Source: Caulobacter sp. NIBR2454 (GTDB lineage Bacteria > Pseudomonadota > Alphaproteobacteria > Caulobacterales > Caulobacteraceae). Taken from it: 64,000 nucleotides of DNA. Under the pieces are notes generated by a model that was given only the letters and a program-made list of their open reading frames with translations, had not been told where the DNA came from and made no database searches. The translations under genes and the position numbers were made by a program. Below, piece by piece: positions 38,789 through 42,657 of the stretch. Every line of letters begins with the position of its first letter. Positions within the stretch are counted from its first letter, which is position 1. The stretch spans positions 2,923,001 to 2,987,000 of the forward strand of contig NZ_CP114871.1 in NCBI RefSeq assembly GCF_027474405.1, written 5' to 3'.

Positions 38789-38871
38789 TTGCTTAAGTGT
38801 TGGCGGGAAGGGAGGGGGAGTCAAGGGGGACTCGCCTCTTAGGAAGCTATGGCCAGCGGCGCACCGAAGCC

Positions 38872-38886
38872 GCCCTTGCGAAGGGC
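38872..38886. other. Short hairpin downstream of the nuclease-like gene
   Basis: GCCCTT-GCG-AAGGGC forms a 6-bp stem with a 3-nt loop about 35 bp beyond the stop of the leftward nuclease-like gene. There is no U-tract; it could contribute to transcript ending or mRNA stability, but support is weak. Confidence 0.25.
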
Positions 38887-38921
38887 TGCTACAGGTGAGT
38901 TTTGTCGATATTGTGAGGGCG

Positions 38922-41144
38922 CTAGTGGGGCAGAGCTATTGGGCGACTAAGAAGGCGGAAAAAGCTCGCCATTGAAAAAGTGTCGCCCTTGGCTTTGCGT
39001 GCGAAGAAGAAAGTCGCGCATTCGACAGCCCCACCCTCTTCATACAATTCCATGGCACAGTTGCGCCCTGCGTTTTGAAACGCTTCGGGGTCCGTCAGAC
39101 GTTTCTCCAAGTGGACCATCACAGCGAACTGCTTTTTCCCGATTGGGTATTTGACGAAGAAAGTGTCTTCACCTCTCAGCGGCTCGCCACGCCGATAACG
39201 GCGGATACGCTTTTCGATCTCCCCCAGCGCTGCCGGTAGCTGATTGAGGATTGCATTTATGATGTCGAAGCGGTGCCGCTGGTCGTTGCTCTTATAGATC
39301 TCGCGCACTGTCGCCTCCCATAGTGGGGGGCGCGGCATCCCGAAGAGTTCAACCACGGTCCGATCAGTGCGCGGCGTCTTAGGCCGCCGGACCGCGCCAT
39401 CGGATTTAAAGAATGCGATCTTCTGACCCTGCAACTGGCTACCATCGATCCATAGCCCGTTGTTCAGATAGGCAGATAATAGATCCTGTTCATCTGCGTG
39501 AAAATCGAACACCTGCTCTAAAGTGGACCGGCGCGTTAAGTAGTGAATGAGTGAAACTTCACTATCTAAGAACCGCACGATCATATGCAATTCACCGAGA
39601 GAAATTACGGGAGACCAAGTCATCTCTTCGGTGACCAAGCCTATATCCTTCAGATAAGATTTGGCGCTGGTGAGGGATGCGAAGTGCTCGATGCAAACGC
39701 TGAAGCTGAAAACAACCTTGGGGCGATCCATCTGAAGATCGATCGGCTCCCCCGTAGCCTTTAGGCGAAGTTTTACTTGGTCACGGGCCGTATCTAGGTA
39801 GCTCTGCAAGCGGCCCGCTTGCTCGCTTGGTTCAATGAAAAGCTCTTTGAAATTCTTTTCGAGACTGAGGATGCCGCCGCGTCGCGCCGCATCTTTGATC
39901 CCCCCCGATTTCGCCTCAAAGAGAAAAACGAAATTACCAATCACGGCGACGACGTCGTTCTCCCAGACTTTCCCTTCCTCTGGATCGTCCCACAACACGC
40001 TGTGATAAATTGCTGCGCTGGGCATGCCAGTCTTAACGAGATCGACAATCGTCGCTTCTAAGTACGAGGCACGTGCGTTTTCGTAAGCCGCCTTGAGCGC
40101 AGTGTGCCCAGTCATCAGCCCTTCAACGATCGCGAAGGGAAACGAAAAAATCAGCTGCGGCAGTGGGATGAAAAGGTCGTCATTTGGAAGACGTACATAC
40201 GGCCGGCGCCAGACTGGATTGTCGAGATAGAGATGATCTGGGTTGGTCCCCTCCAGTTCTCCCGGCCGCACTGATATCCCATAGAGCGCCTCGACGATCT
40301 TTGGAGAGAACTCCAACTTGATCATTGAGCGCGGCAGCGTAAACGCCCAAGGATAGCCGAGCTCGGAAAGCTGAAACGCCGCGTCGCGTAAATCTTCAAG
40401 CTTTGGAAACAATGCCCCCCGTCCACGCCAAGCACGCGCAGCGGTCGGGCTACATTCGCAAATGAACTGGATGGCTCCCAGAATCTGATCGCGATTTTTC
40501 GCGGTGAGGATTGTGCGGACTTGTTGGGTGTATGTCCCAAACCGCTCCATCACTAGGTCGAGAAGCCTCACCCCCGCGCGAAAAAGATCAGATAAACGGT
40601 AGCCCAGCGCCTGACCGGATTGCGCATCCACGCGTGCCAGCAGCGCCTGCATTGTCCGCTCACAATCGTCCCGCGTGAACAGATTGCGGTAGTGAAGCGT
40701 CTGAACTTGAGCCAAGAATGTAGCTCGCCGCTGCGGCTCCGTATGATCGCCTTTCTCCTCCTGGCGGCGAGTGAACCCCCAGAAATTGCGGGCGATGGTG
40801 GCCCAGAGTCGAACAAAGCTGCCGGGAGACGTCGGCACCGCACGCACCGACGGCTCTTGTATTAGCAGATGGGCTTGAAGCAGTTCCACGAAGGCCTGCT
40901 CTAGACGCTCAAACTCCGGGTGAAGCTCTTCCGGCTTACCGCCCTCCATAATGAGGCGCGCCGCGCTTCGGGCGATGACGATATAGGGATCGCGGACACG
41001 CAAAGCCGTTGAGATACGCTCGCGCGTGGTCAGAAAGTCGGCCTGCCACTCCGTAGGGGTCCACCCGTCGGTACCCTCCAGTTCCTCAGACTTCGGCAGT
41101 TCAAACTGCGCGTAACCCGGCATCCCGCGTTCAAGATCAACCAT
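38922..41144 (-). CDS. Large PD-(D/E)XK nuclease-like protein, unknown family
   Basis: 740 aa, no family recognised over the full length. Residues 355-450 look like a PD-(D/E)XK core: a helix with Glu363 (RASYLEATIVDLV), a strand with Glu395/Asp397 (WENDVVAVIG), then FVFLFEAKSG with Glu410 and Lys412, and a following helix with Gln442/Arg445. This E-x-D plus E-x-K layout is that of restriction-endonuclease-type phosphodiesterases. The first 340 residues are helical, and a C-terminal domain of about 250 residues follows. The gene is AT-richer than the rest (24 G/C of 60 at 39541-39600, against about two-thirds nearby) and stands alone, which suggests horizontal acquisition. Confidence 0.75.
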   Translation of the reverse strand: MVDLERGMPGYAQFELPKSEELEGTDGWTPTEWQADFLTTRERISTALRVRDPYIVIARSAARLIMEGGKPEELHPEFERLEQAFVELLQAHLLIQEPSVRAVPTSPGSFVRLWATIARNFWGFTRRQEEKGDHTEPQRRATFLAQVQTLHYRNLFTRDDCERTMQALLARVDAQSGQALGYRLSDLFRAGVRLLDLVMERFGTYTQQVRTILTAKNRDQILGAIQFICECSPTAARAWRGRGALFPKLEDLRDAAFQLSELGYPWAFTLPRSMIKLEFSPKIVEALYGISVRPGELEGTNPDHLYLDNPVWRRPYVRLPNDDLFIPLPQLIFSFPFAIVEGLMTGHTALKAAYENARASYLEATIVDLVKTGMPSAAIYHSVLWDDPEEGKVWENDVVAVIGNFVFLFEAKSGGIKDAARRGGILSLEKNFKELFIEPSEQAGRLQSYLDTARDQVKLRLKATGEPIDLQMDRPKVVFSFSVCIEHFASLTSAKSYLKDIGLVTEEMTWSPVISLGELHMIVRFLDSEVSLIHYLTRRSTLEQVFDFHADEQDLLSAYLNNGLWIDGSQLQGQKIAFFKSDGAVRRPKTPRTDRTVVELFGMPRPPLWEATVREIYKSNDQRHRFDIINAILNQLPAALGEIEKRIRRYRRGEPLRGEDTFFVKYPIGKKQFAVMVHLEKRLTDPEAFQNAGRNCAMELYEEGGAVECATFFFARKAKGDTFSMASFFRLLSRPIALPH

Positions 41145-41557
41145 GGCTCAACTTTACCGCGTGCAAACGTATCGGCCTAGCTTGCAGTGACTGACCGAAC
41201 AGACGAGAGCTCTTACCCCCCAAAAAGTAGCCTCTCGAGACGTATCTTCCCGCTACTCCCGACCCCAAATGGGAGACACTGGAGACATCCGTCGCCCCGC
41301 TTGTCCGCCCCTGTCCCCGGCGTGGGATGATGGGGCATGGAGATCCGCTCAACCCACCCCTCCAGCCCGATCCCGCGCCACGCCGCGCCTTGCGCGACGG
41401 TCGCCTGTCGCCTGACGCACGCCAGCCGCCCGCCCCGCGCCCGGACTTATCCCCGCGCCCTCCGCTCCACATCGGCGAATGGAGACACACGTCCCACACG
41501 CCCACCAAAGCGAACCCAGATTTTGCGCGCGCCTGTGAGTCGAGCTAACAACCCGCC
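41145..41557. other. Non-coding gap with recurrent GAGACA/GACACA motifs
   Basis: No convincing gene. The stretch moves from AT-richer sequence next to the nuclease-like gene to GC-rich sequence near the HPP gene. It contains related short motifs: AAATGGGAGACACTGGAGACATCCG around 41267-41291 and GAATGGAGACACACGTCCCAC around 41475-41495, in the same orientation. The 32-bp motif copy at 41518-41549 is also here. Short open frames in it are Pro/Arg-rich and look spurious. Confidence 0.4.
41518..41549. repeat. Imperfect copy 2 of a 32-bp intergenic motif
   Basis: Second copy of the motif at 37271-37302 (23 of 32 positions identical, same orientation), 9 bp upstream of the ATG that probably starts the HPP protein. 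TGTGAG-N2-GAGCTAAC is the conserved part. Confidence 0.35.
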
Positions 41558-41661
41558 ATGACCTTCTCGCCCATGGCCCTCCTCCGGGGAAAGCCCCCAT
41601 CTCGCCCAAGGACGCCCTGCGTTCCGGCGCCGGCGCGCTGTTCGGGATCGCGGCGGCCGGC
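41558..41661 (+). other. Out-of-frame N-terminal segment of the HPP gene
   Basis: ATG 41558 opens MTFSPMALLRGKP in frame 2, while the continuing HPP frame (frame 1) upstream of its first ATG reads ISPKDALRSGAGALFGIAAAG, which is the expected first membrane helix. One extra C in the five-C run at 41594-41598 would join the two. Frame 1 itself has no ATG, GTG or TTG between its stop at 41536 and 41662. Confidence 0.6.
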
Positions 41662-42657
41662 ATGACCGCGCGCCTGATCGCGGGCGGTGGCGACGCGCTG
41701 CAGACGCCCCTGCTGATGGCGCCGCTCGGCGCCTCCGCCGTCCTGGTCTTCGCCCTGCCGGCCAGCCCCCTGGCTCAGCCCCGCGCGGTGATCGGCGGCA
41801 ACACCCTGTCGGCCATCGTCGGGGTGACCTGCGCCCTGTTCATTCCCCATCAGGTCCTGGCGGCGGCCATGGCGGTGGGGGTCGCCATCCTGCTGATGTC
41901 GCTGCTCGGCGTACTGCATCCGCCGGGCGGAGCGGTGGCCCTGAGCGCGACCCTGGCGGTCGGCGCGGCGCCCGGCTCGCTGAACTACGGCTATGTGCTG
42001 GAGCCGGTCGCCCTGTGCTCGATCCTGCTGGTGATGGCGGGGATGATCTATGTGAACCTGACCGGCCGGACCTATCCGCACCGCACCCCCGCCCCGGTCA
42101 ATGTCCACAAGACCGAGGACCCGCCGCCGAGCGAGCGGGCGGGCTACACCCCCGCCGACCTCGACAAGGCATTGGCCCAGTACGGCGAGCTTCTGGACGT
42201 CAGCCGCCAGGACCTGGACCTGCTGTTCCGCCAGGTCGAACTTCAGGCCCATCGCCGGCTGCATTCGCGCATCCTGTGCGGCCAGATCATGTCCCGCGAC
42301 GTGGTCAGCGTGTCGGCCGATCAGAGCGCCCAGAGCGCCCTCGCCGTCCTGCTGGAGCATGACCTGCGCACCGCCCCGGCCATCGACGCCCAGGGCCGCG
42401 TCGCCGGGCTGGTCCGGCGCGCCGAGTTGCAGGCCGGCGGCGACGGCCTTGTCGCCGACCTGCTTGATCCGGCCGCCCATCGCGTCACCGCCGACACGCC
42501 CATCCAGGCCCTGCTGCCCCTGCTGTCCAGCGGCGAGGCGCATGAGGTGATGGTGGTCGACTACGCCCAGGTCCTGATCGGCCTGGTCACCCAGACCGAC
42601 CTGCTGGCGGTGCTCTATCGCACCCACGTGGTCGAAGCCGTCGCGGCGGGGACCTAG
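41662..42657 (+). CDS. HPP family membrane protein with CBS domain pair
   Basis: 331 aa from the first in-frame ATG; the true protein probably starts upstream at 41558 through a frameshift (see separate entry). The N-terminal half is the HPP domain with several transmembrane helices and the signature LLGVLHPPGGAVAL (about residues 91-104). The C-terminal half carries two CBS motifs: ILCGQIMSRDVVSVSADQSAQSALAVLLEHDLRTAPAIDAQGRVAGLV and HRVTADTPIQALLPLLSSGEAHEVMVVD. HPP proteins are linked to nitrite transport in some bacteria; this is family knowledge and unproven here. LysR gene follows after 2 bp. Confidence 0.88.
   Translation: MTARLIAGGGDALQTPLLMAPLGASAVLVFALPASPLAQPRAVIGGNTLSAIVGVTCALFIPHQVLAAAMAVGVAILLMSLLGVLHPPGGAVALSATLAVGAAPGSLNYGYVLEPVALCSILLVMAGMIYVNLTGRTYPHRTPAPVNVHKTEDPPPSERAGYTPADLDKALAQYGELLDVSRQDLDLLFRQVELQAHRRLHSRILCGQIMSRDVVSVSADQSAQSALAVLLEHDLRTAPAIDAQGRVAGLVRRAELQAGGDGLVADLLDPAAHRVTADTPIQALLPLLSSGEAHEVMVVDYAQVLIGLVTQTDLLAVLYRTHVVEAVAAGT

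Follow-up and report, generated by a model that had tools for sequence, protein, structure and literature searches.

Horizontal acquisition and predicted function of a gene for a probable NERD-type nuclease in Caulobacter: a candidate one-gene defence system

Why does a single AT-rich gene, coding for a protein of 740 aa (here P0001), stand among much more G/C-rich genes in Caulobacter sp. NIBR2454, and what might its product do? An initial annotation of a 64,000-nucleotide stretch of this genome (the window in the following) had proposed a horizontally acquired nuclease of the restriction type, possibly a single-gene defence system. In our analysis we found the open reading frame intact, with exactly the boundaries and length given there (Table 1), and present as a single copy in the host genome of 3.83 Mb in three contigs.

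Composition and insertion site of the gene

The AT-richness on which the initial annotation relied was correct on recounting (24 G/C among 60 positions at 39541-39600, 40 of 60 at 42241-42300). Measured against the other window genes that code for 100 aa or more (n = 57), the gene is an outlier in G/C content (0.556 versus 0.678 ± 0.023, z -5.3), in GC3 (0.630 versus 0.879 ± 0.036, z -6.9) and in codon adaptation, which is much poorer than that of the other genes (CAI 0.317 versus 0.689 ± 0.069, z -5.4), and none of the 57 has a lower G/C content. The window genes were called by our own script; a version trained on the codon usage of the window missed the gene altogether.

An empty site is found in two close relatives, G013 and G009, with 84-89% identity to the window in the longer of the flanking matches: an arsR-type and a lysR-type gene, both named through their PDB relatives, are nearly adjacent, with ∼150 and ∼170 bp between the edges of the BLAST matches compared to 3.86 kb in the window. 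Hence the window holds an insertion of ∼3.8 kb at this point, which comprises two genes, that of P0001 and one for an HPP/CBS-domain protein (HPP by Pfam PF04982, E 6e-44; CBS from PDB relatives). The latter is ordinary for the window in G/C content (Table 1) and in CAI (0.755) and has homologues in 36 of the 61 genomes of the genus, its own included and some of them weak matches. As the homology to the copies of congeners starts at 41587, the ATG listed for it at 41662 probably lies inside the gene. In seven congener stretches around an HPP/CBS homologue we found none of eight other window genes, the P0001 gene being one of the eight. We considered the HPP/CBS gene as a component of the system and rejected it because of its normal composition and its congener homologues elsewhere without the nuclease. 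By eye, the end of its reading frame, stop codon included, seems to extend into old host sequence beside lysR. The two genes may have been inserted in one event or in two. Integration targeted at a tRNA gene was rejected, since the window contains neither a tRNA gene nor an Rfam match; promoter and terminator scans did no better than scans of shuffled sequence.

Table 1. Coordinates of the nuclease gene, its predicted parts, the insertion and the related two-gene cassette (window positions unless a locus is named)
Feature	Coordinates	Strand	Basis
Inserted segment, missing from two syntenic relatives	38827..42645 (approximate, by eye; BLAST edges 38825, 42681)		Comparison with relatives
Gene of the nuclease-family protein P0001 (740 aa)	38922..41144	-	Intact ORF, ATG start
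N-terminal region, residues 1-349	40098..41144	-	Without known-domain match
NERD-type PD-(D/E)XK-like core, residues 350-460	39765..40097	-	Residue counts (93 and 15 sequences), HHalign to NERD
Codons of Glu395-x-Asp397 ... Glu410-Ala-Lys412, predicted active site	39909..39962	-	Residue conservation
Second conserved block, residues 512-565 (Pro512, Leu519, Tyr535, Arg539, Glu552)	39450..39611	-	Alignments
C-terminal region, residues 566-740 and stop	38922..39449	-	Without known-domain match; variable among distant relatives
HPP/CBS-domain gene, same insertion, GC 0.718	41587..42657	+	Homology to congeners' copies
Two-gene cassette	L011 9783-13230; L012 9782-13230; L016 9827-13209	convergent	Identity across three genera

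The predicted nuclease core and a second conserved block

The seven residues proposed as the surroundings of an active site (Glu363, Glu395, Asp397, Glu410, Lys412, Gln442 and Arg445) are all found at the positions noted. The nuclease proposal had been tied to the conservation of Glu395, Asp397, Glu410 and Lys412, and in an alignment of 93 homologues E395, D397, K412 and Q442 are invariant (93/93), while E363, E410 and R445 are kept in 92 sequences each. Equally invariant (93/93) are Y535, R539 and E552, which belong to a second block outside the core; its residues are invariant or nearly so even when relatives from other phyla are included. A further alignment of 15 family members and distant relatives, the latter from Salimicrobium, Pontibacter, Gordonia, Streptomyces and Diaphorobacter among others so that three other phyla are represented, retains E395, D397, K412, Q442, Y535, R539 and E552 in 15/15 sequences, E363 in 14/15 and R445 in 12/15, and at position 410 has Glu in 11 and Gln in four distant sequences. 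The active-site motif of PD-(D/E)XK nucleases reads D/E ... (D/E/Q)-x-K, and an exchange of Glu for Gln at the glutamate of E-x-K is known within this superfamily. The family agrees with this pattern in both alignments (93 and 15 sequences).

Database searches with P0001 returned very little. The sole Pfam match is NERD (PF08378) at E 0.11 and 13.5 bits, under the gathering score of 22.1; no family of PADLOC-DB 2.0.0 matched at E ≤ 1, none of NCBIfam or PHROG matched, and PDB sequence and profile searches gave chance matches only (best E 0.18). Residues 1-349 have no match in Pfam, PADLOC, NCBIfam or PHROG and residues 566-740 no known domain in Pfam; a Walker A motif is absent, as are helicase and kinase domains in Pfam. 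None of nine relatives tested passes the NERD gathering score either, the best, a protein of G399, reaching 21.7 bits (E 3e-4), and our family profile finds the same protein at 3e-16. Two others match NERD at 0.0033 (P0019) and 0.0032 (the L031 protein), those of L029 and L030 not at all, and a few relatives are labelled NERD or nuclease-related by their source databases. All ten members and relatives tested thus score below the Pfam cut-off, and PADLOC 2.0.0 matches neither P0001 nor the single distant relative scanned, so that the family may escape surveys based on these libraries.

In profile comparison by HHalign the match to NERD depended on the query, weak for close homologues and strong after distant relatives had joined them. 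With the 93-sequence alignment of close homologues, residues 340-470 or 355-460 reached a probability of 32-38% against a set of 8 NERD sequences and of 14-19% against a set of 38. When four distant relatives were put into the query beside 15 family members, the probability rose to 92-93% (E 3e-7 to 6e-7), a figure that is not independent of the weak NERD matches which two of these four show by themselves. Four other slices of P0001 scored at most 2%. In the aligned register D397, E410 and K412 fall onto the Asp and the Glu-x-Lys of NERD. In sequence the core resembles a divergent NERD-type PD-(D/E)XK domain, and the nuclease reading is well supported by the conserved active site: judged from its sequence, P0001 is very likely a nuclease. 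The gene is intact and horizontally acquired, and its product is probably an active nuclease of the NERD type.

Distribution, mobility and gene neighbourhoods of the family

How widely is this gene distributed? A search of ∼5.8 billion proteins, in which 7999 candidates were scored, gave at least 115 proteins including P0001 at E ≤ 1e-3, and a profile built from 51 sequences gave 117. In genomes we located 22 family loci, all recorded as Alphaproteobacteria. The distribution is patchy. Among 385 genomes drawn from Alphaproteobacteria there were two matches, the own genome and a distant relative in G399, and a search of 60 relatives' genomes (36 of them congeners) with P0001 gave none. The family profile matched 10 of 299 Caulobacteraceae genomes: the window, two full-length copies and one broken copy (at the coordinates of L003, L005 and L023), and six genomes, one of them a congener, with partial matches to a distant subfamily only (E 9e-7 to 6e-63). 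The broken copy, in Caulobacter sp. S45 (L023 10001-11143), is a remnant with internal stops. No family match occurs in 50,697 phage records, and one of eight scans of viral contigs gave 29 pattern matches and no relatives.

A tree of 24 rows, from which the broken copy was excluded, intermixes bacterial families. Constraining five Caulobacteraceae-side rows (including P0003, whose source is unknown) to a single clade, a test fixed beforehand, was rejected with p-AU 8.6e-5; two constraints picked after viewing the tree were rejected as well, the two Tabrizicola rows with p-AU 6e-104 and the two Bradyrhizobium rows with p-AU 0.018. Four Caulobacteraceae-side rows, including the window, do form a group. 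The vertical phylogeny that the initial annotation had named as its counter-case is thus rejected by the predefined test; two relatives also show the empty site.

The family genes are mobile. Loci in Mameliella and Actibacterium (L011 and L012) have 3449 bp in common at 97% identity, and a locus in Palleronia (L016) matches both over 3.4-3.8 kb at 82-83%. The common stretch contains the family gene and a convergent Aga_Nuclease/pP_pnuc gene (Table 1); by eye, no Argonaute gene was noticed beside it. Recombinase genes lie in the flanks (up to 10 kb) of 9/22 loci versus 1/20 control regions of 20 kb, a count that leans towards the family since the query recombinases were taken from its own neighbourhoods. 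At 19 of 21 loci (L017 excluded) the family gene is AT-richer than its 5-kb flanks, and two copies are borne by rhizobial plasmids, 0.76 and 1.5 Mb in size. The proposed horizontal acquisition is borne out by the empty site, the composition and the tree, and we regard a horizontal gain of the P0001 gene as virtually certain.

The wider family was reached via plasmids, because a protein search with four distant relatives yielded just six proteins including the query's own. Among 72,556 plasmids searched in six frames, 11 records matched. Two are the rhizobial full-length members, with 49% identity. A Salimicrobium plasmid protein matches 63% of the query with 25% identity (E 1e-45), the pairwise alignment having 520 columns at 26%, and relatives over residues ∼250-650 occur in Gordonia, Pontibacter (labelled 'NERD domain-containing protein'), Diaphorobacter, Bradyrhizobium and Streptomyces. 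The Diaphorobacter and Bradyrhizobium plasmid relatives are labelled 'SEC-C metal-binding' at source, and three of four from Streptomyces 'SecA'. The core module thus occurs in several phyla, with ends that vary; in total, relatives occur in at least four bacterial phyla.

The surroundings of these relatives differ. On Gordonia pGKT2 (L126 2757-14915) the relative is flanked by a helicase gene and a DUF1156 gene, with DUF499 behind the latter, and looks like an extra gene in a BREX-related system; such systems comprise a DUF499 ATPase, a methyltransferase and a helicase (PMC12839542). In Falsiroseomonas bella (L029 7-5466) a HerA-type ATPase gene, a gene for 399 aa without Pfam match and the relative follow each other closely on the same strand. 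HerA as a regular partner was rejected: it is present at L029, but a search with this HerA found none in L140-L145. By eye, no HerA was recognised in L030, L031 and L032, two of which have short flanks. One Rhizobium tumorigenes plasmid carries a family copy beside a hypothetical gene, followed by a DNA adenine methylase gene and a DGQHR-domain gene. In one Caulobacteraceae stretch (L142 8067-18141) two relatives flank, by eye, a protein of 1313 aa with a P-loop-like start and one of 398 aa, and genes resembling Tn7-type transposition genes were seen nearby. Also by eye, another Caulobacteraceae genome has a distant relative near genes resembling type I restriction genes, and in L140, L141 and others the distant relatives stand among seemingly ordinary genes.

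Do family genes cluster with defence genes, as a defence function would predict? We took at most three genes from either flank of the family gene, which gave 114 proteins for 20 of the 22 loci (the broken copy and L017, whose stretch includes no neighbours, were left out), and compared them with 120 control proteins, six per stretch from 20 control stretches in 15 of these genomes. At 1e-5 the neighbours matched 211 PADLOC families versus 69 for the controls, totals that are not gene counts because one protein can match many models. Strong defence matches within three genes were found for at least 10 proteins in at least 7/20 loci, that is, at a good part of them. They include MTase_II (1.7e-80) and PDC-M68B (1.7e-45) at L005, MTase_III (9.7e-302) at L010, where another protein has a bare type III match (9e-6), a type I REase (1.1e-207) at L011, a Lamassu-like LmuA (6e-16) at L012, an IetA-like protein (1.8e-20) at L014 and Aga_Nuclease at L011 (1.6e-78), L012 (1.2e-79) and L016 (5e-80). 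L002 has TIR-APAZ (4.6e-136) and then, beyond the three-gene limit, a short pAgo (6e-202), which together make up SPARTA.

Neighbours for single PADLOC scans were chosen by eye, and controls were judged from the bulk scan alone. Among the matches listed, the single-protein families extend to 3e-107 for the neighbours, which makes 10 a lower bound, and to 1e-16 for the controls; the strong control families were all SIR2 or PDC-S15 models, which we took as two proteins in two regions. By protein the excess is at least 10/114 versus apparently 2/120 (Fisher one-sided p 0.013, with unequal procedures on the two sides), and p is 0.043 if the Aga_Nuclease cassette is counted once; by region it is at least 7/20 versus apparently 2/20 (p 0.064, same test). 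Among the matches listed, 13/20 loci have no strong defence match within three genes, and single scans of five more proteins near the gene (at L003, L008, L009, L014 and L022) gave none. Left uncounted were control matches to mad3/mad8 (six proteins each), since six control proteins match an ABC-transporter domain, and weaker ones to AriA, HTH_VI, capH, RmrA, Control_protein and ATPase-Toprim; neighbour matches to capP, mad, RmrA, PDC-M69B and RT-Protease were likewise not counted. The excess looks real but modest, so that the expected clustering was found at modest statistical strength. In the window itself no recognised defence gene adjoins the P0001 gene.

To look for partners we grouped 323 neighbour proteins from all 22 loci (flanks up to 10 kb; 50% coverage, E 1e-10). 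Groups common to at least three loci were one in five loci at a distance of 2.5-8 kb, serine recombinases and tyrosine integrases in four loci each, two further groups in three loci each at 3-8 kb, and the Aga_Nuclease-like gene, 136-137 bp from the family gene at three related Rhodobacterales loci and the only close partner in more than two of the 22. As these are distant, recombinases, or one gene at three loci, no general partner was seen. The description of the gene as standing alone has to be corrected for the window, where the HPP/CBS-domain gene lies inside the same insertion. At L009 (3190-7086) a protein of 1298 aa with a C-terminal CHAT protease domain and no PADLOC match is encoded four genes upstream of the family gene.

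Possible functions and comparison with known systems

As its relatives move between bacteria, often beside anti-virus genes, P0001 is probably a one-gene immune system. We consider it quite likely that it is a defence gene, with a presumed antiviral action, and fairly likely that it represents a stand-alone, helicase-free, divergent NERD-type PD-(D/E)XK nuclease moved between bacteria as a small defence cassette. How might such a protein act? The ∼340 N-terminal residues and the block with Tyr535, Arg539 and Glu552 could sense or bind invader nucleic acid or an infection signal. This would free a predicted metal site formed by Glu395, Asp397, Glu410 and Lys412 and helped by Gln442, and the freed site, in a core of residues ∼350-525, would then cut DNA, either that of the invader or, on failure, that of the host.

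A variant that overlaps with this reading, possible but in our view rather unlikely, is that P0001 is not a self-contained restriction enzyme but an abortive-infection or toxin-like nuclease, kept inactive by a host factor or a partner until it is triggered to attack host DNA. For NERD nucleases that stand alone beside Dnd systems a role as suicidal back-ups has been proposed (PMC10853773), and the NERD domain in PglW has been proposed to do likewise (PMC12839542). The convergent gene resembling an Argonaute-associated nuclease that travels with the family gene at three Rhodobacterales loci speaks for this variant, as does one distant relative that follows a HerA ATPase gene; however, no other close partner occurs at more than two of the 22 loci, and the window copy is without one.

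It seems improbable that the family serves repair, recombination or element maintenance on mobile elements instead of defence. Three neighbours matching the IMS (translesion polymerase) family, placed by eye in L003 and L008, and the two rhizobial plasmid copies would agree with such a role, but the restriction, SPARTA, Lamassu-like and IetA-like neighbours and the presence in so few Caulobacteraceae genomes argue against it; the absence from phage records does not bear strongly on the choice between defence and maintenance. A degraded or inactive domain that only binds is very improbable, as against the weak NERD match and the broken copy at 1/22 loci stand active-site positions kept in all or all but one of the 93 sequences and an intact reading frame in the window.

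More tentatively, and with close to even odds, P0001 may belong to an unnamed, bacteria-wide family of stand-alone immune nucleases with a NERD core, a new Tyr535-x3-Arg539 ... Glu552 block and interchangeable ends that tune sensing (SEC-C-annotated in some), acting as a complete one-gene system in Alphaproteobacteria and with its core reused by other lineages in loci containing DUF499, HerA or an NTPase. If this were true, a mostly 'hypothetical' family from at least four phyla would offer a set of candidate one-gene defence systems open to direct testing, and the invariant Tyr/Arg/Glu block outside the core would offer a handle on how such nucleases are silenced and switched on.

In the profile alignments, weak without distant relatives and strong with them, the Asp and Glu-x-Lys of the NERD (PF08378) nucleases fall in register with P0001, which scores below the Pfam cut-off and differs by its long ends, N- and C-terminal, that match no known domain. 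The NERD domain occurs in Mokosh type I and Nhi-like systems (PMC10952713), in DndF (PMC10853773) and in PglW of type 2 BREX (PMC12839542), the latter two with the suggested back-up roles mentioned above. P0001 resembles these proteins as a predicted NERD-type nuclease in defence contexts and differs in being encoded by a separate gene instead of a fusion, with neither a Walker A motif nor a Pfam match to a kinase or helicase. Nhi-like and Mokosh systems carry a helicase/ATPase part. Defence pairs of HerA and a nuclease (e.g. HerA-DUF4297) are resembled by the distant relative that follows a HerA gene at L029, in contrast to the six other distant-relative regions searched with this HerA, which have none. 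The available part of the open-licence literature on NERD in defence and on single-gene defence nucleases holds no recognisable description of the P0001 family. Shedu (SduA) is a single-gene system as well, a PD-(D/E)XK nuclease with a variable N-terminus, a C-terminal nuclease and the DUF4263 domain. Searches of Pfam and PADLOC at E ≤ 1 gave neither SduA nor DUF4263 for P0001. Both would be encoded by a single gene with a PD-(D/E)XK-type nuclease, yet the predicted nuclease of P0001 is central, whereas that of Shedu is C-terminal.
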